A stretch of DNA of 23,217 bases from a virus: positions 1 to 23,217 of IMG/VR virus record IMGVR_UViG_3300012920_000278. One strand, written 5' to 3'. Below, one piece after another: positions 8,753 to 22,200 of the stretch. Both the position numbers and the translations under genes were made by a program. Below the pieces are notes generated by a model. That model made no database searches, was not told the origin of the DNA, and saw only the letters and a program-made list of their open reading frames with translations. Numbering within the stretch: position 1 is the first letter of the stretch; each line of letters starts with the position of its first letter.

Positions 8753-10360
8753 TTACAAATTTGGATCATATTCTATAGCCCAACCTTTGGCTAATCTGTC
8801 TTCTTCAGTTTCAATGGCTGCGATAGCTTCAGAGCCATCATCTACAAAACCGAATGGAACGATATCATCTTCCATTTCTTTAATTCTATTCTCAAACAAA
8901 AGTTTCTTCATATTAATATCTGTCATATCTAAGAAGTAACTACCAGTCGTAAAATAACCAAATAATACAAGATTCATAACTAAATCGTCATGGTTACCAT
9001 CTGTTGCTTCAAATGATTGTCCTCTTGCCTCAAACGTAGAAATCTCTAGTATGGTTTGTTCATCGACTATTTTTAATTTGCCATTTTCTAATATGTCTTT
9101 AAACGAAGAACAACCTAACCTCTTCGTCTTACGAGTGATTTCGATGCCTAATGCATTTGCTTTTGTTAATGATTCTGCATGCATATTTTCGTACTCAAGG
9201 TCATGCCATAAGCCATTACAAACTAAAGAGCCTTGATCATTTGACTCAATAACTACATATGCATTATTGTAGACTTTTGCATATTTATAGATAACATTAG
9301 GGAAGAGTAATGGAGAGATAGTGTTATTGCGATATACAGCAACCTGTGTGAATGGGCGAACGCTAATATCGATCAAATTAAATGTAGAGTAATCCTGTCC
9401 TCTTCCCTTACTCACGTCTACGGTCATCACATATTGATGATCCTTAATCGGTTCTTCGTATATGTTAAGTAAACCACCTTCGAGTGATCTGATTGGATTA
9501 CTGGCCCTCAAACTCATCAAGCATTCGGCATTTATGAGTGTATCTCCAGTACCAAAAAACGTATTACCAAATTCTTGATCAAATTGTAATTGGCTTGTAT
9601 TGCCGATGGTTTCTGCTTTCCAAGTCTCATCACGTCCAGGTACATCATGCCAGTCAACTCGAAATGGTTTGAATTGATTTACTCCTTGGACAGCTCCTTC
9701 CCAAATTTTATGAAACTGGTTACCAATTCCGTTAGCTGTCGATGTAACGATAATTTTAGTGTCTGTGCCTGCTGAAACAACTGGATACGTTGAGGTATAA
9801 AATTCTGCAGCACGCTCAACAAAAGCAAACTCATCAAGATAAAGTAGATTAACAGACATGCCACGAATAGAACTACCGGAAGTAGCAGAAGCGATAATCC
9901 TGGAATTATTACTAAATTCCAAAGATCCTTTATTAAGAGCTTTGTTACCAGGTTGTAAGAAGAATGGAATGTTCTCGAGCATAAGTGTAATGCGTGACAA
10001 CATCTCACGCGCAGTCGCGCCCTTGTTCGCCAAGACGGCCACAGTTTTTTCGGGATTAAAGAGCGCGAACCATAGTAAATACGCGCATGCTGATATTGAT
10101 TTGCCAGATTGACGACATGCGAGAACGACATTGAAACGATTCTCCTGAAAATGTTCAAACATTTTTTGTTGATAAGGATAGAGTTTAAAATTTACTAAAC
10201 CTTTATCAAGAGATATAACCTTAACATACGTCTCTGCAAAATAGATTGGATCGAGCATACATTTTTTATATTCATTGACAAGTTCAGGAGTCCAATTTTG
10301 TTGCACTCCATCACGTTTGACATTAGGATTCCCCAGATAGCTTTGTAGCTGGTTCAGCAT
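8753..10360 (-). CDS. gp17: Terminase large subunit gp17 (packaging ATPase and nuclease)
   Basis: This is the DNA packaging motor that docks on the portal and cuts the concatemer. The ATG at 10360 gives 535 residues; a TTG lies one codon upstream. ATPase domain: Walker A CRQSGKS at 82-88, Walker B LLYLDE at 172-177 (Asp176, catalytic Glu177), coupling motif TSTANG at 206-211. Nuclease domain: acidic residues in MTVDVSKGRGQDYS (Asp315), VVIESNDQGS (Glu372) and GNHDDLVMNL (Asp458/459), the RNase H-like set of T4 gp17. All key residues are present, so it should be active. It is shorter than T4 gp17 (610 residues). The stop is 67 bases before the gp18 ATG. Confidence 0.96.
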   Translation of the reverse strand: MLNQLQSYLGNPNVKRDGVQQNWTPELVNEYKKCMLDPIYFAETYVKVISLDKGLVNFKLYPYQQKMFEHFQENRFNVVLACRQSGKSISACAYLLWFALFNPEKTVAVLANKGATAREMLSRITLMLENIPFFLQPGNKALNKGSLEFSNNSRIIASATSGSSIRGMSVNLLYLDEFAFVERAAEFYTSTYPVVSAGTDTKIIVTSTANGIGNQFHKIWEGAVQGVNQFKPFRVDWHDVPGRDETWKAETIGNTSQLQFDQEFGNTFFGTGDTLINAECLMSLRASNPIRSLEGGLLNIYEEPIKDHQYVMTVDVSKGRGQDYSTFNLIDISVRPFTQVAVYRNNTISPLLFPNVIYKYAKVYNNAYVVIESNDQGSLVCNGLWHDLEYENMHAESLTKANALGIEITRKTKRLGCSSFKDILENGKLKIVDEQTILEISTFEARGQSFEATDGNHDDLVMNLVLFGYFTTGSYFLDMTDINMKKLLFENRIKEMEDDIVPFGFVDDGSEAIAAIETEEDRLAKGWAIEYDPNL

Positions 10361-10682
10361 CAATCACATCACTTTCTCTAAGCATTTTCTGTAAATCTGC
10401 AGTCGAACCAACGTAAAAGTTATTCTGTTGATTCTCTACCTGTTTTACTTCTTCTCGCTTATCCATTTCTTTTTGTTTTTTATTTAAGTCCATCAGCCGA
10501 TCATTAACGTCAGATACATTTTTGATCATGCCAGATAGGACTTCGTAAGCACGAGGGTGCTCGCTTTCGCGAGCAACCTCTATCATGTTTTCTAAGGCAT
10601 CTTTACCTTTTTCTATGAGTTCATAATATGTCTCGCGCGAATAATCGTAATCACTCGTTACATTATCTTTTTCTTTGCTCAT
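10323..10682 (-). CDS. gp16: Terminase small subunit gp16
   Basis: The chosen start is the ATG at 10682 (MSKEKDNVTSDYDYSRET), giving 119 residues. The frame is open upstream to 10763, but that part overlaps the preceding gene by 80 bases. T4 gp16 has 164 residues; this is shorter but keeps the coiled central part (YYELIEKGKDALENMIEVARESEHPRAYEVLSGMIKNVSDVNDRLMDLNKKQKEM in the family pattern, residues about 19-73). Small terminase forms a ring that recognises DNA and regulates the gp17 motor. Its end overlaps the start of gp17 by about 38 bases, as in T4, where 16 and 17 also overlap. An AAGG lies upstream of the ATG. Confidence 0.85.
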   Translation of the reverse strand: MSKEKDNVTSDYDYSRETYYELIEKGKDALENMIEVARESEHPRAYEVLSGMIKNVSDVNDRLMDLNKKQKEMDKREEVKQVENQQNNFYVGSTADLQKMLRESDVIDAEPATKLSGES

Positions 10683-10683
10683 T

Positions 10684-11961
10684 TTAATGCGCCTTAAATG
10701 TTCCTCTACCACTTGTTGGAGGACCATAATGAACTTGTCCTTCAGTCTTAATAGTAAGACCAAACTTCATCTTCGGATATGCGCCTGCTCGTGTAGCCTG
10801 CACAGCGTATGCATTTGACCAATCATCTGTACCGTCATATGATACAGAGGAATCAGACCAGATTGGCGATAAGTACATGTAATATGGATCTTCTGTGCCT
10901 TCGAGTGGTACACCTGGTCGTAAAGCATCACTTACACCAGCTGAATCATCTGCTGGATCAAATGATGAGTGACTAGCCTTCTTACCAACATTATTTGTGT
11001 CAGTTGCGTGTGCTTTTGCCCACACGCCGTTCATTCCCCAGAATAATCGATTTTCTCCGAGTGAATCTGATACTCCATCAATAGCGATCATAAGTATATC
11101 ACCCGGTTGAATCATATTAGCGGTATCGTTTTTATTTTCTACCGAAACATTTGTACGATACAGAGTTCCTTGATTCGAACCATCGAAAGTAATTAGATCT
11201 TCGTTATTACCAGTTCTATCGTCACCCGATATCATCAACAATTTCGAAACGAGATCTATACTAAATGCTCTACCAACAGCTGCTGTATCCATACCACCGC
11301 TCAGCCAATTTTCTGGAGCAATCGTTAATTGTAATCCACCAGAAGCATGTCCTTGATTTCCATCTCTACCGTGTCTACCTACAGTTGCAACAGCAGGTGG
11401 AGTATTTAAGTTAGCATCCATCAAAGTTGGTACGCTATCGATGTGTACTTCGAAATATGTACGTGTGTTGCTTTTGATAGGTTGAGATACGAGTGCTTCA
11501 CCTCCTACACCCATTGTGCCAGGTGTTGGATAGAATCCCCAGTCAAGATAAGATACACCTCCAAAGAATGCATCAGAATCAGCATTACTTCTATCAAATG
11601 TACCGCGAGCTGTAAATACATGTGATACTTCGCCATCACTATCGATGTCATGAATCAACGGTGGTACAAACTTTGTTGCTGAATACCCAAAGAAACCCTT
11701 ACCTGTATTCGGATCATTAAATGTCGTACCAAGACCTAATCCGTTTGGATTAAATGAAATCTGTCTCGACAAACCGGGGTATGCTTGAGCAAGAAGCTGC
11801 AAAAGCTGTGTATTTGTGAAAGTTGTAATATTCTGAAAATTACCAGTATTTGTACTAAGTCTTGCATTAGTTGAACTATTCGCTATGATTTGAGCAGACC
11901 AAAATCCTAGTGAAACTGTAACTGGTTTTTGAGTATAATTATCAAAAAAACTATATGGCAT
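10684..11961 (-). CDS. Virion-type protein with SPRY/concanavalin-like domain (425 aa)
   Basis: No T4 gene occupies this place between gp15 and gp16. The N-terminal 100 residues (SFFDNYTQKPVTVSLGFWSA, then a region rich in Asn/Thr) are not recognised. Residues about 165-405 have the strand pattern of a SPRY/lectin-like sandwich: TRTYFEVHID, GGLQLTIAPENW, IQPGDILMIAIDG, then NRLFWGMNGVWAKA and YYMYLSPIWSDSS. SPRY domains show the same series: a YfEV strand, a GDvIgv.iD strand, an FxxNGxxxg hairpin and a late LyP strand. The domain would fit protein or glycan binding on the virion surface. The start has GGAGAT as ribosome binding site, and the stop lies one base before gp16. The domain call is by eye and moderate; the coding call is strong. 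Confidence 0.7.
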   Translation of the reverse strand: MPYSFFDNYTQKPVTVSLGFWSAQIIANSSTNARLSTNTGNFQNITTFTNTQLLQLLAQAYPGLSRQISFNPNGLGLGTTFNDPNTGKGFFGYSATKFVPPLIHDIDSDGEVSHVFTARGTFDRSNADSDAFFGGVSYLDWGFYPTPGTMGVGGEALVSQPIKSNTRTYFEVHIDSVPTLMDANLNTPPAVATVGRHGRDGNQGHASGGLQLTIAPENWLSGGMDTAAVGRAFSIDLVSKLLMISGDDRTGNNEDLITFDGSNQGTLYRTNVSVENKNDTANMIQPGDILMIAIDGVSDSLGENRLFWGMNGVWAKAHATDTNNVGKKASHSSFDPADDSAGVSDALRPGVPLEGTEDPYYMYLSPIWSDSSVSYDGTDDWSNAYAVQATRAGAYPKMKFGLTIKTEGQVHYGPPTSGRGTFKAH

Positions 11962-11964
11962 ATC

Positions 11965-12360
11965 TTATCTCCATGTCGTAATGATTAAAGCATGGCCGCT
12001 ATCCATACCAGCTGTCGTTGTGATTGTATTTTTACCTGTCATGGTAAAATCTAAATTTTCATCTAGCAAATAACCATTCAAATATACCATGATTGTCGCT
12101 GAATCGAACAATAAGGTGTTGCCATAATTATCGGCTCCAGTAAATACAGTATCTCCAGAATCTGCTTCAAAGAAATACTTGCTAAACGAAAGAGCTCGAG
12201 ATTGTACATAAGCAGAATCTACTAAAGCTATTGTAGCCGCAGAATCTAATGAACTTGTTCCTTGAAGAGCGGTAACTCGACCATCTAGATCGGTGAAGTT
12301 GCCGTCTAGTTCAGCATGAGTAAGTTCCACTCCTTTCGTGCTTCGTAATGTGATTGTCAT
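11965..12360 (-). CDS. Small virion-type protein: one DSAYV motif plus one LNGILL-type repeat (131 aa)
   Basis: Three pieces are visible. The N-terminus has KGVELTHAELDGNFTDLDGR, a starter motif recalled from many marine phage fibre proteins. LDSAATIALVDSAYVQSR follows at about 38-55. A single beta-repeat (about 60-131) has SGDTVFTGADNYGNTLLFD and VYLNGYLLDENLDF, matching the six repeats of the large fibre at 19824-21338. It therefore looks like a miniature fibre or an adaptor that shares the fibre's building block. It starts at an ATG behind AGGAGA and ends 3 bases before the next gene. It has no counterpart between gp15 and gp16 in T4. Function unknown; a structural role is inferred. Confidence 0.75.
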   Translation of the reverse strand: MTITLRSTKGVELTHAELDGNFTDLDGRVTALQGTSSLDSAATIALVDSAYVQSRALSFSKYFFEADSGDTVFTGADNYGNTLLFDSATIMVYLNGYLLDENLDFTMTGKNTITTTAGMDSGHALIITTWR

Positions 12361-12376: not shown

Positions 12377-13186
12377 TTAACTACTATCCGCAGTCGGTAT
12401 TATTCTTCTAATATAGCCATAATCTCCAGCGCTATCAGCTGATACACCTCCGCCTTGACCATCAGAATCAGCACGCGATATAATAGTTTCTACGGATATA
12501 TCTGAATCTTTCAATCCACCATCCATAATAAACATTTCTGTGTTGACTTCTGTAATGATCTTCGATTCTCTGTCGACTGGACCATAATAAGAAAGTTTCA
12601 TTTCAAACGAAAGTGTGTAAATGATAGTGCGTCGTTGTGCTATTGCTCCATCAAAATCATCTTGAAAATCTACACCAGTTATGATTACTGGTATATCTTC
12701 AACAAAATCGCTGTATAAATCAGCAAAAGGTTTTATGGTGACTGTATACTGTGGGTTAAATGTTGGCAGTATTTGTTCTACAAGTTGTAAACAGTCATCA
12801 TGAGATTTGGCATATATGTTTAATTGAAAGTTGATAGTATATGGAACAGGAGAATACATCTTCGATCTTTTTGTAATCGTCGAAGCTGGTTGATTCAATG
12901 AGCTTAACTTAGTTAATTGACGAGTTGCATCATAAGATATGCCATTAATCTCAAAAGACATTCTCGGCAACTTAACTGCTAGCTTTTCTCCACCATCCTG
13001 TAAATCTGTATTCTCGCGTATACGATCTAAATATTTTTCTTTTGGTGCATATGCAAGTGGCACCTTAATTTGATTAATTGTTTGGCCTGCACTATTATGA
13101 CGCATCACATACAAGTTATTGAACAGTCTACCAAATAAGGCTACTGCTTTCCTTGTTTTTTCATGATAGAAATATTCACCAAACAT
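12377..13186 (-). CDS. gp15: Tail sheath stabiliser and completion protein gp15
   Basis: This 269-residue protein is close to the 272 residues of T4 gp15, which forms a hexameric ring capping tube and sheath and binds the neck. Conserved features are the N-terminal MFGEYFYHEKTRKAVALFGR, then LFNNLYVMRHNSAG and IKVPLAYAPKEKYLDR, and a long central part containing MSFEINGISYDATRQL and VPYTINFQLNIYAKSHDDCLQ. It overlaps the gp14 stop by one base and has CGGAG as ribosome binding site. Assignment rests on these motifs and on the gene order. Confidence 0.92.
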   Translation of the reverse strand: MFGEYFYHEKTRKAVALFGRLFNNLYVMRHNSAGQTINQIKVPLAYAPKEKYLDRIRENTDLQDGGEKLAVKLPRMSFEINGISYDATRQLTKLSSLNQPASTITKRSKMYSPVPYTINFQLNIYAKSHDDCLQLVEQILPTFNPQYTVTIKPFADLYSDFVEDIPVIITGVDFQDDFDGAIAQRRTIIYTLSFEMKLSYYGPVDRESKIITEVNTEMFIMDGGLKDSDISVETIISRADSDGQGGGVSADSAGDYGYIRRIIPTADSS

Positions 13187-14400
13187 TATTGATTCTCCGG
13201 ATCACCAAATGGATTTGTTTCTGAGAAGTCTAAGAAATCATCTGAAACTGTACTAAAGTCATCATTCTGCTCATTTTCTGAAACTTTATTCAATTCAACT
13301 ACACTTTGTACTGTAAGACCAAGTAAACCAGTTCCACGTGATGTATTTATTATTTGTGTACCACTGCTATCACCTGAAATGAAGTTTCTAAATTTACCGT
13401 CTTCTGCACCAACATGTGTGAGATATAGACGACGACAAGAATCACCAGCAGAATCTAACTTATAGCGAACGACTTCACCTTTCATCTTCGTGCCATTTGA
13501 CAAAGTTTGATAGATATTATCACCAATCCTGTAATCACTATCAACTGTGCTGCCGCCAACGACATTGACAACTGGTATAGAATTATATCCATTGCCAGAA
13601 TCAGTGATGGTGATTGTGTTTACTCCACCATTTCCTATAGTAACTGTAGCTGTTGCACTGTCTGTAGCAAATCCATCTATTGTGATAGTTGGTTGTACGT
13701 TAAAGTAAGTTCCTCCATCAAGTATAGTAATTTGTTTAATTCTACCTGGAGATTGATTGACATAGTTGACGGCCGAATATCCGAATGCCACATAATTACT
13801 GTCATTTGCCATCGTCACATTAAATACTGGCTTTTTAGGTGCCTTCAAACATAGTTCATACTGATAAGTACTTGTGGTCTCAATACCATCAATATCGGCA
13901 ACTCCAGTATCGAAGTCTTCTCCAGTATACTCGAATAGTTGAGCACGAAGTTTAAAAACTGGTATATCTTCGATTTGATAAAATGGTTGCTCATGCTCAA
14001 CATGCATAATTTGAAACATCTTTTTTGTCAAAGGCAAATAAATAACATCACCTTCAACAGGACGTTGTGCTAACAACTCATTATCGTATCTAGCTACCTG
14101 CGCAGCCCATCTACGTCGTGATACTATAAACGTAGCTTCGTCTCTTATCTCTACTCCAAATCTCGTAAAGAGATCACCTTCACCATCAAATCCTTCTGTA
14201 TTCTCAATATACATCTCGATCTTATAAGATGAATTAAAACTAGACTCAGGATCTGCACCAAAAACAGTATCGTAATTTACTAAATCACGAGGTAAATAGT
14301 ACACATCCTGACCATAGATCTGCATAGCCTCAATAACGAGGTTTTCATACAGTTCCATTTCAGATCTGACTTTAGGTGAAAAGTAGAAGTTTCTCGCCAT
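13186..14400 (-). CDS. gp14: Neck protein gp14, with enlarged C-terminal half
   Basis: This is T4 gp14-like (256 residues in T4, 404 here). The N-terminal part, residues 1-160, has the family pattern: LYENLVIEAMQIYGQDVYYLPR, SYKIEMYIEN, the GDLFTRFG segment and PVEGDVIYLPL. The end DFSETNPFGDP is also typical. Between them lies extra material. Residues about 220-285 contain two copies of an ITIxDGGxxYxxxPxxxI beta motif (ITILDGGTYFNVQPTITI and ITITDSGNGYNSIPVVNV). It works with gp13 at the head-tail junction. The ribosome binding site (GGTAGGA) lies in the end of gp13. Its stop codon shares one base with the gp15 ATG (TAATG), suggesting coupled translation. Confidence 0.88.
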   Translation of the reverse strand: MARNFYFSPKVRSEMELYENLVIEAMQIYGQDVYYLPRDLVNYDTVFGADPESSFNSSYKIEMYIENTEGFDGEGDLFTRFGVEIRDEATFIVSRRRWAAQVARYDNELLAQRPVEGDVIYLPLTKKMFQIMHVEHEQPFYQIEDIPVFKLRAQLFEYTGEDFDTGVADIDGIETTSTYQYELCLKAPKKPVFNVTMANDSNYVAFGYSAVNYVNQSPGRIKQITILDGGTYFNVQPTITIDGFATDSATATVTIGNGGVNTITITDSGNGYNSIPVVNVVGGSTVDSDYRIGDNIYQTLSNGTKMKGEVVRYKLDSAGDSCRRLYLTHVGAEDGKFRNFISGDSSGTQIINTSRGTGLLGLTVQSVVELNKVSENEQNDDFSTVSDDFLDFSETNPFGDPENQ

Positions 14401-15197: not shown

Positions 15198-17318
15198 TTA
15201 GGATCCTGAGTCGAACCAATTAAATCCGTCGTTCCCACCAGTTGAGTAGTTATAATTATTTGCGGTCGCAACAATTACGTTATTGTCCATGATAAGCGCA
15301 CCATTAAAATTTCCTACAGAACTGCTGCTACCAGAGGTGCCACCACCAGCCATTCCGGTATTTGTCACATCACCTTGAATTATGTTAGTTAATGAATATT
15401 GAGCACTGTCTAAGTTGTAAATATAAATCTGGCCAGCGCCGGCACGTATTTCAGTGCCGTCAGCAGACTCTGCTGATCCGTAAGGAGCACCTACAATAAT
15501 TGTATTTCCATCGGCAGACACGTCAAGAGAAATGCCGAAGTACCTGTTTTCGACGCCTGACCTATTTCCAGCAGAGTCTGGATATAACTCTTGAAATAGA
15601 CTATATGCATCTGATCCAGTTGCTCCATCACTATCTCTTTTCCATATCTGAACTCCGCCAGTGTACAAGTTATTTCCTGGATTTTGGTTGGCATCTGCGT
15701 TTACTGCAAATTGATTCGAGTTCGATCCTGGCGGATACATACCTGTAGTCGGTCTTAAAGTCGGAATTGACCATGCAATAGTTTCAGCATCGCTATCCAT
15801 CGAAACTGTCATAGATTGTGAAAAAGCATTACCGTTTCCAGAAATAAATTTGCTAGCATTAGACCCCGAATTTACAGGCCAAAGCTTTTGTTGATATTCC
15901 CACATGTCACCATATACACCAACTCTTTTGTAAACATAGCACGCTCCAGTCCTTATATTAGTTCGAGGAACAGTAGATCCATACGAGGCAGAAGTAGCTG
16001 CCATCCAATTTCCGTCTGAAGATACAGAAACACTCATACCAAATTTTGAAGATTGAACAACATCTGGGCATTCAATAACTTGTTGAACGGCTGGATTCCA
16101 AGTTGTTCCAGTTCCAGTTCTACTAAAACAAATTAAAGCACCCGCGTAAGATAGACTGTTTGAATACCAATAAGGATCGCCTAAAACCCAGTAAGTTCCA
16201 GTCTTGTCCGTGTCCATTTCACCTATTTGATCCATATCGTTATTGATAGATGAAGTTGGAAGAGATCCAAAGGTACTTTGTACATAAGTATTTAATTGAT
16301 AATTCGTAGCGGTATTAAGTAAGGTACGATTTGGATATGCTCCTTCTACTTTTCCAATTCGTAAAGTATGAGAAGGCCTGTTATCAGTGGTCATTGCAAA
16401 ATAATCTCCGCCTATAGCCACTGCAGCCCCACATTGCCAGTTTCCATTGCCTAAAGATGGTCTATGCCATAGACCGTTCCAATTTCTAGAATTATCATCC
16501 CAAGTGTGCAGTTCAATACTTCCATAATTACTATAGCCGTTTGAGCTTTGTGAGAAAGGAGCACCTGAAATAAACTCGATATAGCCGGGGGCTTTATTCT
16601 TTTTCAATCTATGAAATGACTCTTTGTTAGTACCTTGACCCGCAGGTGTATTATGCAATTTAAAATTGAATGTAGGTGAATTCCATTGTGGTGCAAAGCT
16701 ACCATCTGCATTTTGACCTGCTGTGCCAAAATTAAGTTTGAGATCTCGAGATATTGATGAAATTGCAACTCCGTCATTAACGTTAAACGTTAATCTGGTG
16801 GTCGTAGTTGTGGCTGATCCTTGTGCTTTAGGTGTTACAACAAATCGAGCAGAATCATTTGCTTGTGTTAAAGTACCAGACGCTAGTCCACTGAAATCAC
16901 CATCTGAATCCACAGTAAATGTAAGTGGATTTGTACTGTCATTTCCAGTTATGATAAATGTGGTAGTAGTAACTCCATCTTTAGCTAAACTAATTGTTCC
17001 TTGTGGTGTTACTGTAATTGTAGGATCTTCATTCGTCAATTCGTTCTTAAACCAATTTATTCCATTAGAAAAGTAGAATCGATTCTGATTTTGAGCATAA
17101 TAAATTGTTCCTTCATTATCACTCGCATTAGGAAGAACATTAGCTGCAGATATCACTTCAACACCAGGAGCTGAACGATTTGCTATATAATTAGAATCAA
17201 TTATTCCAATCACTTGAGCTGAATCTGTCCCTTCGTTTTGTGCAAGTAGTCTTAAGCTACCAGTGTTAGCAGCTTCAGTAGCTCCAAGAATTTGTGCAAT
17301 ATCTCTACTTCTTGACAT
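15198..17318 (-). CDS. Fibre/adhesin-like virion protein, paralogue with FG-GAP-like repeats (706 aa)
   Basis: The ATG at 17318 is preceded by AAAGGATAAG and, 19 bases upstream, by an exact late promoter box. The N-terminus MSRSRDIAQILGATEAA matches that of the left-edge protein (MSKNRNIAALLGSAG). A DSAQVIGIIDSNYIANR motif follows at 32-48, a conserved EGTIYYAQNQNRFYFSNGINWF segment (69-90), a cadherin-like beta domain (about 98-197) and propeller-like repeats (about 240-690). Clear repeat cores are SKFGMSVSVSSDGNWMAATS (424-443) and NRYFGISLDVSADGNTIIVG (591-610), the latter followed by AP and a GQIYIYNLD strand. The protein is probably a virion surface adhesin or fibre. It ends 43 bases before gp13, so it could decorate the neck or tail, but this is not shown by sequence. 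Family assignment is confident at domain level only. Confidence 0.8.
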   Translation of the reverse strand: MSRSRDIAQILGATEAANTGSLRLLAQNEGTDSAQVIGIIDSNYIANRSAPGVEVISAANVLPNASDNEGTIYYAQNQNRFYFSNGINWFKNELTNEDPTITVTPQGTISLAKDGVTTTTFIITGNDSTNPLTFTVDSDGDFSGLASGTLTQANDSARFVVTPKAQGSATTTTTRLTFNVNDGVAISSISRDLKLNFGTAGQNADGSFAPQWNSPTFNFKLHNTPAGQGTNKESFHRLKKNKAPGYIEFISGAPFSQSSNGYSNYGSIELHTWDDNSRNWNGLWHRPSLGNGNWQCGAAVAIGGDYFAMTTDNRPSHTLRIGKVEGAYPNRTLLNTATNYQLNTYVQSTFGSLPTSSINNDMDQIGEMDTDKTGTYWVLGDPYWYSNSLSYAGALICFSRTGTGTTWNPAVQQVIECPDVVQSSKFGMSVSVSSDGNWMAATSASYGSTVPRTNIRTGACYVYKRVGVYGDMWEYQQKLWPVNSGSNASKFISGNGNAFSQSMTVSMDSDAETIAWSIPTLRPTTGMYPPGSNSNQFAVNADANQNPGNNLYTGGVQIWKRDSDGATGSDAYSLFQELYPDSAGNRSGVENRYFGISLDVSADGNTIIVGAPYGSAESADGTEIRAGAGQIYIYNLDSAQYSLTNIIQGDVTNTGMAGGGTSGSSSSVGNFNGALIMDNNVIVATANNYNYSTGGNDGFNWFDSGS

Positions 17319-17344: not shown

Positions 17345-19246
17345 TTACGCTGAGTCATACAATTTATTTAGAACACCGTTGTAATACGGACTTGAAGCTA
17401 CTCCAACATCTGTAATGAATTTAGCTTTACCGTAGTATCCAATTGGTATATAACCATGTCCGTACGCATTATTCCGACTACCTTCAACCCAGTTACGAGC
17501 AAGAAACTGTCCTCCCGAAGAATCTTGACTGTAGAACATTCCTACTCCACTGATGCCACTTCTTCCTGATGTTTTATAATTGGTATCAGTAGGAGCTCCA
17601 ATAAAAACTGCATTGCCTTGACCGTTTATGCAAACTGTAGTTCCAAAATAATTATTTTCTGCCCTATAGTCATAGTTCTGAGAGGATGGATCACCAATGC
17701 CCTCAAACTCAACCGGATGTAAAGTCTGAAAATGATTCCAAGTTGTACCTGATCTTTTATAAATTAGTGCAGCTCCTTGTACATACTGTGTAGTTGAATA
17801 TCTACTAGGAGGGTGGCCACCTATTATGAGTGTGTTACCATCATCACTTATTCCGATATCATATCCCCAATATATCGCAGCCGCATCAACGCCATTCGGT
17901 ACTCGATTCCAGTTAGAATTATGAGCATTAACAGCCGCGGTAGTAAAAAGATTGTCCCAATCTGAAACCTGTGGTTGAATTGATGCCTGAATTGCAAACT
18001 CATTAGAACCGGCACTATCTCTTGTAAATACATGAACTTTACCGTATGTTGACGCTGAAAACGGTGTTGGACCTTCTGCATAAGATTCACCGACAGCTAA
18101 AGTTAATCCATCTTCTGTCATTGCTAACGAATTTCCAAATCGATTATTTGGTCCTGCCTGAGGAGATGGAATCTCCTGGACTTCTGACCATGTATCTGCT
18201 CCATCATCTTTGCGATAAATAAATATTCTTCCAGATCCACCACCATTTTTGCCATCGAGTCCATGACCCATTACAACTATATCTCCAGATGAATCACATG
18301 CTAGTGGAACTCCATATGTATACGAGAAAGACTGATTAATATCGGCCGGCGGATCAAATGCATTTGCAGGTAGATTTGACAATGACGATCCATTAATTTT
18401 CCAAGCATACGGTTTATTATAAGTTGTAGCAGTTGTGGATGTATAACACGCAAAAATATAATTACGACTACATGCCATAGCCCCGTAAGCTGTTCCATAG
18501 TATTGATCAGTTCTGCCAGAAACGTCGTTGATGCTATGATAACTTCGGTATGTCCAAATACCATTAACGAGCTGATACCAGCCAAAGGCTCCATATTGTG
18601 ATGGATGATAACTATTACCAATCATCATCACGCCAGCGGCTCTACACACTGCATAATTTGTACCACACTGTGCACTATGACCTCCTGCACCTAAGTCGGT
18701 TTCTTGTATTGTTTCATAAGTTGGTCCACCAGTACCAAAGAGAAGTCTTAGTGTTCTTTGTGAAGATGCAATCGACTGTCCATCAGAAACTCTAAAAGTC
18801 AACTGAGAAAAGTTAGTAGTGGCGGCTGCTTGACTTTTAGGAGTGATTGTAAACACAGAGGAATCTTGTGATACTGTACCGAGACCACCGAAATTACCAT
18901 CAGATTCTACAGAGAAAGTTAATGTAGCGCCTGAATCTGCGTCAGTCGCAGTGAGTCTGACAGTTGTCGATGTAGTATCAGTTGCAAGAATAATAATGCC
19001 TTCAGGAGAAACTGAAAGAGTAGGATCTTGATTTACAACTGCCATCGGAAACCATGCATCTCCGATTGACACATAAACTTTATTTGCATCATCTACATAA
19101 GCGAGACTACCTTCGGCTCCGGAAGAAGGAGGTAAAGAAGCTAGAGTATTGTAAACCGTGATTCCAGCACCTCCGCCTCCACCACCGCCCGTAGCAGCAT
19201 CGACTGCTGAATCAACTAAACCTCGTATTGATGTAAGTGTTGCCAT
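17345..19246 (-). CDS. Fibre/adhesin-like virion protein with cadherin-like domain and FG-GAP-like repeats (633 aa)
   Basis: The ATG at 19246 follows the upstream stop within 2 bases, so translation is probably coupled. The Shine-Dalgarno is weak (GAGAAC). Layout: short N-terminal helix with a degenerate DSA motif (1-18), a seven-Gly linker (20-26), a short conserved stretch with YVDDANKVYVSIGDAWFPM (50-69), a cadherin/PKD-like beta domain (about 73-170; LTATDADSGATLTFSVESDG), then propeller-like repeats (about 190-575). Repeat signatures are NRFGNSLAMTEDGLTLAVG, GYDIGISDDGNTLIIGG and NYFGTTVCINGQGNAVFIGAP, each followed by a strand such as GKVHVFTRD or GAALIYKR. This is the FG-GAP/integrin-alpha-type pattern, found in carbohydrate- or protein-binding surface proteins. 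It is paralogous to the 706-residue gene and the left-edge gene. A role in host recognition is inferred. Confidence 0.8.
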   Translation of the reverse strand: MATLTSIRGLVDSAVDAATGGGGGGGAGITVYNTLASLPPSSGAEGSLAYVDDANKVYVSIGDAWFPMAVVNQDPTLSVSPEGIIILATDTTSTTVRLTATDADSGATLTFSVESDGNFGGLGTVSQDSSVFTITPKSQAAATTNFSQLTFRVSDGQSIASSQRTLRLLFGTGGPTYETIQETDLGAGGHSAQCGTNYAVCRAAGVMMIGNSYHPSQYGAFGWYQLVNGIWTYRSYHSINDVSGRTDQYYGTAYGAMACSRNYIFACYTSTTATTYNKPYAWKINGSSLSNLPANAFDPPADINQSFSYTYGVPLACDSSGDIVVMGHGLDGKNGGGSGRIFIYRKDDGADTWSEVQEIPSPQAGPNNRFGNSLAMTEDGLTLAVGESYAEGPTPFSASTYGKVHVFTRDSAGSNEFAIQASIQPQVSDWDNLFTTAAVNAHNSNWNRVPNGVDAAAIYWGYDIGISDDGNTLIIGGHPPSRYSTTQYVQGAALIYKRSGTTWNHFQTLHPVEFEGIGDPSSQNYDYRAENNYFGTTVCINGQGNAVFIGAPTDTNYKTSGRSGISGVGMFYSQDSSGGQFLARNWVEGSRNNAYGHGYIPIGYYGKAKFITDVGVASSPYYNGVLNKLYDSA

Positions 19247-19247
19247 A

Positions 19248-22200
19248 TTAGTTCTCTGTTAATATCCAACCGTTCGAGTCATTGTAATATACAAGACCGA
19301 TCGCGGCTCGGTTAATGTTAATAATTAGATCACTATCACTGCCTAAAATCTTTTGTGTACTCTGAATAGTGATATTGTTTGTTGCTGCATTGCCAGATCC
19401 ATCTATGATTCTTACTTCATCACCTAATGTCGCTCCAGCTTGTAAAGTTATGACTTTACCTGACGTTTTAGTATTTACTATCTTGCGATCACCAGGCACT
19501 GCGATAAACGATGATGCAGCTTCAGTCCAAGTTAATCTTTCGTTTATAGCTGAATCTGCAACCGTACTAGCCGCTGCAGTTGCAAGAGGTGTAATTTGTG
19601 CTGAGTCTAAGCCAGCAGTAATCGTAATCGTTTTTGTTCCAGAACCATTGCCAGTTGCTACAACTCCACTACCGACAAAATCAAGAGTAGTTGCTGAAAC
19701 TGTTAGCGGTGTACCTTCATTCGCGATTGTGAATCCAACTGAAGCACCTAAACGAGCAGCAACATAAGCTGAATCAACGAGAGCAAACATATCGTTTGAG
19801 TCAAGTCCAGGTAATGGTGAATTACCTAAGAACCTTTCAACCAGTAGAATGTCTCCTGAGTCTGCAGCTTCTGTAAGTACTACACTATTACTATTCGTAG
19901 CTGTAAAATCTGATGAACTTAAAAGCAAACCGTTAAGGTACACAGCCAACTTTCCAGGATTATATTCTAAATTTACACCGTTGTTATCGTTTCCTGAAAA
20001 TACTGTTTGATTAGAAGTTGCAGTATATTCGAACTGAGTTCGTGTTAAGGGAAGCTGTATGCCACCATCAAATACGATATCTCCATAAGCTACAAATTGA
20101 ACATCATCACCTAATAAAGCTGGTTGATTCAATGTAAATGAGAAGGTGTCTGTTGCAGTATAATCTGTTGGAGCAAGTAAGATACCATTTAGATAGACAA
20201 GCTTTGATCCAGCAGGAGAATATCTAAGTTCTTTTCCGTTCAGATCAATTCCGATAAACTTTGTCTGCGCAGAGTCTGCTGTATAATAATAAGCTGTCGC
20301 TCTATCATTAGCAGAGGTAAAGACAGATACGATATAAACATCACTGCTTACTGAAGTTCCGCTGACTGTTATACTAGTACCGTTTGCAGTTGTATAATCA
20401 CTTGAGCTTAATAATATACCATTCTTATGGACTTGCACTTGATTATTACCAAATGCCATACTATTTCCAGTAAGAACTGCTGTACCAGTTAGACCAGTAA
20501 ATTTATATTCTCGATAATTAACACCTGCAATATTATTTGATATAGTATTGACAATTGATAAGAAATCATCAGAGTCTGCAGCAAGTGTCAATGTTATCGA
20601 AGTATTAGTTGCTACATAGTCATTTGTTTCAGAAAGTAAAATACCATTTAAATATACCTCAGAGATACCATTTGCAAGATTTAAATTTGTACCTTTATCA
20701 TCAGCACCTGTAAATACTGTCTGGCCAGAATCTGCAGTAAATTCATATGAATTAGAAAACAGTGTCGATTGACCCGTTCTACCAGTTGTTTCAATAACTG
20801 TTAAAGAATATCCGCTATCTGCTGCTTCTGTTAATGTGATTGCACTACTAGTTGCAGTAAAGTCAGTAGTATCTTCGAGCAAAATACCATTTAGATAAAC
20901 TTCGATATGATCTGTCGATACAGACAAAACATTGCCAAACTTATCGCTATCTGTAAATATAGTTTGACCTGAATCTGCTTCATAAATGAATTTTGTTACT
21001 GAAAGAATGCCAGTGGTTATATCTTCAATTCTTGATGAAATATAACTTGAATCAATAGTTGCATTTATTAGAGTGAGTGTTGCTGCTGAATCGACTCCGC
21101 TTGCAGGAGTAATTGCTGTATGCTCAAAGATCTGTAAAGTATCGTTTGAATCAGCACCAGTTACTAGTGTGATTGTGCTACTGTCTGTTTCTACATAGTC
21201 ATCAGTTTCAACAAGGAGAATACCATTTAAAAAGACTTGTGTATTAGATAAATGTTTCTCATAGCTTAATGTGGTACCATTATCATCAGCTCCAGTAAAT
21301 ACTGTTTGGGCCGCGGTGGCAGTATATGTAAATACATCGATTGCATTAGCAGCATCGCCGCTTCCACCACCGCCTCCACCAGAGTTAGTAGATGGATTAA
21401 AAGTAAATACTCCAGTTGAGTTATCATATGATAGTTGTCCACCGCCTGACGCTGTACCTGTAGTTACAGATATGCCTTGCCTTGCAGTAGCGAGAGTAAT
21501 ACCAGCTCCAGTGTATCGTGCTGTGATATAATTTGAATCAACTAAATTGATAACGGCGGCAGAATCGAGGCCACCACCTCCTCCTCCACCACCACTACTA
21601 CGAGCAGCTACATAAGCTGAATCGACTGTTGATGTAATGAGAGATATAGTTGCAGCAGAATCAACTCCTGCACTCGTAATGTCACTCAGTAACGCAAACG
21701 TACCACTTGAATCTGGTAAATTGATTATATTATCAGCAGTAGGATTGATCGCTTGAATTTTAGTTTCATTATTATTTGTCGAATCACCTTCGAATGCGAT
21801 ACTAGTAATACTGTTAATATTCTGATCAAGTTCTAATGTAACGTTATTAGCGGCAATGCCTGCATTAATTTGGCCAGTAGTTCCTAAGAACGTTAATGTT
21901 TCTGTTGCGCTGTTAAACGTATGTGTACCAGTATTAGCCGCTAGACCGAAAGTTGTTCCTGGTGTTCTTGCTGCAACGTACGCGCTATCAACAACACCTT
22001 CAACACGAGCATTTGTATAATATAAGTTTGTACCTTCTGCAAGATCAGTAGTTGTAAATCCTGTAAAGTTACGAGTTTGCACGAAGATTGCATTACCCAT
22101 ATAGCCATGATTTGCACACTGATAATGTAGAACTGGAGGAGTTGCGTCTGTAATTTCAATTTCTACATACGAACCATTTTGCCCAGCTGATATGCCGCTT

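Follow-up and report, generated by a model that had tools for sequence, protein, structure and literature searches.

A candidate adaptor and adhesin pair encoded between genes 15 and 16 of an uncultured T4-like phage

In the T-even phages, gp37 and gp38 are encoded by a fibre gene and, directly after it, by a separate gene for the adhesin which that fibre carries; the gene immediately following a fibre gene can also be that of a chaperone. Fibritin, as described in passages of PMC3797505, has a conserved N-terminus of 50 residues on the neck, a coiled shaft and an exchanged C-terminus, and two extra ORFs lie downstream of it in Aeh1. A further group of described systems is formed by the XD-domain adaptors T4 gp10, CBA120 TSP4 and G7C gp66, where the XD unit is a dock for other trimeric fibre proteins; in both gp10 and TSP4, such binding sites are XD2 and XD3 (sections of PMC8825819). 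SPRY domains have been found in jumbo phages in association with tail fibres and further parts of the virion (extracts of PMC7824862).

The locus compared here with these systems belongs to the virus record IMGVR_UViG_3300012920_000278 of IMG/VR, in a stretch of 23,217 nt called the window below. The window spans a structural gene module from a marine T4-like phage, carried on the minus strand in the order large fibre, two FG-GAP proteins, gp13, gp14, gp15, m131, s425, gp16, gp17, and gp18 through to gp23. Names were given through Pfam or PHROGs for gp13 to gp16, by alignment to Phage C48C1 for gp17 and gp18, and by order for the rest. The features considered are the following.

12377 to 13186, minus strand: gp15, tail sheath stabiliser, the flank before m131 in gene order (Pfam PF16724, T4-gp15_tss, 8e-68; PHROG 227)
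11965 to 12360, minus strand: m131, putative adaptor fibre gene, 131 aa (ORF, 15-sequence family alignment, structure model of mean pLDDT 76)
12262 to 12360, minus strand: residues 1-33 of m131, conserved N-module, presumed attachment part (family alignment and locus comparisons)
11968 to 12192, minus strand: residues 57-131 of m131, beta unit with a predicted XD / T7 gp17-N fold, presumed docking part (Foldseek and VIA)
10684 to 11961, minus strand: s425, predicted SPRY-fold protein and presumed adhesin, 425 aa (ORF, 17-sequence family alignment, fold matches)
10323 to 10682, minus strand: gp16, terminase small subunit, the flank after s425 in gene order (PHROG 445, 1.1e-39)
19839 to 21341, minus strand: six more m131-type units in the large fibre, residues 626-1126 of a frame open from 23216 (profile i-Evalues from 1.8e-8 to 5.4e-23, also found by tblastn)

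The two genes and their predicted products

An earlier note on this DNA had placed two genes between gp15 and gp16, at 10684 to 12360, and the ORFs confirm these coordinates exactly. The close spacing and ribosome binding sites that it described were also found: the gaps are 16 nt between gp15 and m131, 3 nt between m131 and s425 and 1 nt between s425 and gp16, with SD-like motifs ahead of m131 (AGGAG) and of s425 (GGAG). As it had further claimed, the insertion is absent in T4, where genes 15 and 16 are separated by 8 nt with nothing inserted, as they are in T2. Both genes are considered real: IMG/VR contigs carry homologues at the corresponding position, with identities to s425 as low as 25-33%. 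Elsewhere in the window, the proteins encoded at 15198-17318, 17345-19246 and 1-944 have an N-terminal domain in common (38-47% identity in parts), and the first two bear FG-GAP repeats according to Pfam.

The product of m131 consists of the conserved N-module of 33 residues, helices and the beta unit. Its structure model, computed from 15 sequences, has a pLDDT of about 90 over residues 57-131 and is poor ahead of residue 57. Comparison of the unit with VIA gave matches to a KP1 baseplate (gp10-like) chain (Z 9.7, 72 residues, rmsd 1.9), CBA120 TSP4 (Z 8.6), HRP29 (8.4), T7 gp17-N (7.5) and T4 gp10 (7.0), the alignments to the KP1 chain, TSP4 and T4 gp10 spanning 64-72 residues; such Z values are, according to the tool's own note, only slightly above those of unrelated small domains, and the weight lies in the consistency of the phage fibre matches. 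The beta unit is predicted on this basis to have the XD-type fold of gp10 and TSP4, and the reading of m131 as a small fibre gene, also made in the earlier note, is supported. The fold of the unit would be common to m131 and the XD-domain adaptors T4 gp10, CBA120 TSP4 and G7C gp66, but these are larger and located at the baseplate, whereas m131 is smaller, is encoded beside gp15, has a different N-terminus and contains one unit only.

In outline, m131 resembles fibritin. A short conserved N-terminus, a helical part, an exchanged C-terminus and a neighbourhood of neck genes are features of both, and the extra ORFs downstream of Aeh1 fibritin (as given in passages of PMC3797505) add to the likeness. 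This resemblance comes without sequence kinship: the best BLASTP E value between m131 and T4 wac is 0.065, for these two sequences compared alone and aligned out of register, which is no meaningful match, and m131 is for this reason not filed as a fibritin. Identity with fibritin is ruled out by this comparison together with gene position, m131 being located after gp15 and T4 wac before gp13; m131 differs, moreover, in carrying an XD-type unit.

For s425, the model from 17 sequences is of low confidence (mean pLDDT 49.9, pTM 0.59), but its fold matches agree. The best Foldseek match in the PDB reached 3.2e-5, and ranks 1 to 22, 19 of them at E<=1e-3, are SPRY-type by title or known structure. 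With VIA, the best Z was 11.3 (165 residues, rmsd 3.2 A) and the 50 matches listed are SPRY-type by title or known structure, while a viral structure library returned, among other matches, B30.2/SPRY proteins of an uncultured phage and of RSL2. The profile of the 17 sequences had SPRYD7 as its sole PDB match (E 0.26, not significant alone), and Pfam SPRY (PF00622) did not match s425 or its 17 relatives (window protein included) at E<=1. A SPRY beta-sandwich is supported by these fold predictions. The SPRY part of the earlier description of a SPRY/lectin-like protein of 425 residues is supported by fold (Foldseek 3e-5, VIA Z 11.3). In addition to lacking that match, s425 differs from SPRY / B30.2 domains, including those of RSL2 and of uncultured phages with which its predicted fold is common, by 66 extra N-terminal residues that are conserved in the s425 family.

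Searches of Pfam and PHROGs returned nothing useful for m131, for s425 or for the 17 s425 relatives (window protein included). Among 50,697 phage records, m131 matched 23, mostly through the beta unit in pelagiphage fibres and never over 80% of its length; tblastn of s425 and its distant relatives L058 and L060 in the same records gave no match. Scanning genome contigs with the s425 family profile produced 13 stretches that fit a pattern and no relative. A search of the window's record for Pfam SPRY gave nothing, but neither did its 14 controls, and it carries no weight.

Distribution, pairing and joint exchange

With gp15 as bait, 33 IMG/VR loci were obtained (some of the contigs are duplicates), of which 27 contain both flanks. 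The m131 and s425 pair is present in 3 of these 27 (L004-L006), a short gene with the m131-type N-module alone in another three (L007, L008, L026), a gene of 188-192 aa in 11, several small ORFs in one (L031) and no inserted gene in nine, two of which (L035, L036) have a gap of 321 nt holding an apparent gp15 end. The sole 188-192 aa gene tested, that of L010 (6780-7349), encodes a 2OG-Fe(II) oxygenase according to Pfam, and the other ten are alike by eye. The gp15-gp16 junction is, on account of these differing contents, a variable spot, and the pair does not belong to the core. Neither of the two outcomes that the earlier note had set against itself, a fold unlike SPRY or lectin and universal presence of the pair in close relatives, was observed. 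No gene separates gp15 from gp16 in Phage C48C1, whose gp15 gave the best match in the phage collection, and in the cyanophages S-P4, S-RIM2 and Syn1 additional genes come after gp16 instead. The variable site itself is probably already known: Millard and colleagues reportedly described in 2009 a hyperplastic region of cyanomyoviruses, which is the subject of their title, between g15 and g18.

The m131 family was examined with the m131 alignment as bait. Relatives are encoded in 267 stretches, and the best 80 of these 267, corresponding to 79 loci, were kept. In most of these 79 loci the N-module gene comes directly after a recognisable gp15, a figure that shows the placement of the N-module and not its frequency, since the loci were picked for it. 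Six of them (L108, L113-L116, L118) have an additional N-module gene, placed between gp14 and gp15. The first 33 residues are conserved and the remainder is variable, the N-module being followed by a beta unit, by coiled 'DSAYVxAR' stretches, by Gly-rich parts or by short ends such as 'FADFQSRIAAL'; a conserved N-terminus with an exchanged C-terminus, as in fibritin, is therefore found across the family.

The beta unit and s425 are closely paired. The 79 loci contain 87 N-module genes, 13 of which were dropped, six being truncated at the contig end and seven having <700 nt downstream (among those dropped, the gene of L066 contains the unit and is followed by the beginning of an s425 relative). 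The 74 genes counted comprise 22 with unit and s425, one with the unit but no s425 relative (L068), none with s425 but no unit, and 51 with neither; that is, an s425 relative is found downstream of 22/23 unit-bearing genes versus 0/51 with other payloads. After clustering of similar genes (n=45), the same four classes hold 13, 1, 0 and 31. The p-values of 6e-18 and 2e-10 both overstate the significance, because the loci are in part related and thus not independent, and because some of them also served to train the profiles. The unit and s425 also co-vary beyond the core genes: over 17 taxa, the distance correlation was 0.90 between unit and s425, 0.53 between unit and core and 0.61 between s425 and core, and the partial correlation of unit and s425 given core was 0.86, a value reached by 0/2000 permutations.

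Joint replacement is seen in a single clear case. Between L001 and L004, nucleotide identity is 93% in gp13, 95% in gp16, 93% at the start of gp17, 79-80% in gp15 and 92% in the N-module; the linker (64%), the unit (63%) and s425 (56-62%) are much less similar. The locus nearest to L004 in linker (84%) and unit (79%) is L042, which is further from it in gp13 (80%) and gp16 (78%); the s425 proteins are 65% identical between L004 and L042 and 56% between L001 and L004. Fast divergence alone would not explain this crossed pattern. In L004, linker, unit and s425 were replaced together, and the N-module and flanks were kept. The window and L001 show no sign of exchange with respect to each other (unit 86%, s425 80-84%). 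Exchange is not restricted to this cassette, since the middle of gp14 is only 48% identical between L001 and L004.

Possible placement and role of the pair

The reading preferred here, with about an even chance of being right, is that m131 and s425 together make up an appendage of the virion that can be exchanged, an adaptor displaying a SPRY-fold adhesin. The m131 protein would be a short, probably trimeric adaptor, anchored to the particle by its N-module, with the neck or the tail top as the likeliest site; its XD-type beta unit would hold s425, and s425 would bind something on the host surface. This arrangement would be like that of the T-even gp37/gp38 pairs, the adhesin gene directly following that of its carrier fibre, although the proteins and the place are different. 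The predicted folds of unit and s425, the replacement in L004 and the N-module copy next to gp15 speak for this reading, and co-occurrence and co-variation of unit and s425 give indirect support to docking. The weak s425 model, the missing Pfam SPRY match and the unit without s425 in L068 speak against it. Location and function of this kind, also suggested in the earlier note, are plausible.

The first alternative places the pair at the baseplate or the long tail fibre and takes its gene position as no more than a convenient landing site. Baseplate proteins are known to contain XD units, and s425 could dock on the large fibre of the window phage, as this contains six m131-type units. In the 13 records searched, all of them fragments, the N-module start was nevertheless found once per record, always in the gene next to gp15 and never in the fibre genes (10 of the 13 also contained one s425 relative each). 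This single copy next to gp15 points to a site close to gp15 more than to one in the fibre network, and the neck-adjacent placement recurs, including the six cases between gp14 and gp15; mounting at baseplate or fibre is judged unlikely.

Binding of the N-module to gp15 only is weakened by L087 and L105, which belong to other, non-T4 phages and carry N-module genes near portal and capsid genes, so that the N-module is not specific to gp15. The same two loci speak for the pair being a weak general binder, for instance of polysaccharide, on head or collar and not deciding host range. This is quite improbable, as relatives have exchanged the pair, which points to selection acting on its binding target.

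The least probable alternative, that s425 is not a virion protein and acts in the cell or as a fibre assembly chaperone, draws on the oxygenase gene at the equivalent junction of other relatives (unrelated metabolic genes also land there, so gene position alone is no proof of a virion role) and on the chaperone genes that can follow fibre genes, but s425 is tightly paired with the fibre-like m131, and neither it nor its relatives matched a chaperone family in PHROGs.

If the virion appendage reading is correct, marine T4-like phages would have an adhesin slot away from the baseplate, and it would be explained how an adhesin can be swapped with the particle staying intact, the conserved N-module and gene 16 bounding the piece that is exchanged. 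It would also place a SPRY-fold protein in a virion context with a named partner and make a concrete adaptor/adhesin pair available for testing. More tentatively, and with the odds somewhat against it, many uncultured marine T4-like phages may have, on the tail top, an additional apparatus for recognition that is encoded beside gene 15: a fibritin-like adaptor slot in which unit and adhesin, SPRY-fold or other, are traded as one cassette with the anchor staying. No description of the pair was found in the open-licence literature; adaptor design, coupling of unit and s425 and cassette exchange go beyond the earlier note, as does the variability of the site, where metabolic genes are found too.

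Other variation near genes 13 to 16

An end peptide like 'TLKAEVAASTDFADFQSRIAAL' is present in L031 (position 4039), L033 (3754), L034 (3742), L007, L072, L074, L083 and L104. Among these loci it terminates short N-module genes after gp15, and a similar end occurs on the gene just before gp13, the T4 wac position, in cyanophage-like contigs. After gp15, L032 and L034 have ORFs that appear, by eye only, terminal-oxidase-like and 6-phosphogluconate-dehydrogenase-like. In L069 (1997-4730), two tandem N-module fibre genes, each followed by a gene of 104-108 aa, lie between gp15 and gp16.

The middle of gp14 (13560-13799) has 46-61% nucleotide identity between close relatives, versus 78-79% in the first 200 residues. 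Of 85 loci, with duplicates counted, 20 have a split gp14 (for example L001:2858-4776, L002, L007, L052, L063, L068, L074, L081 and L084): the ORF of the N-part ends, and another ORF, in a frame shifted by two, overlaps or adjoins its stop and bears an extra stretch and the gp14 C-part. In the window, gp14 is one ORF.
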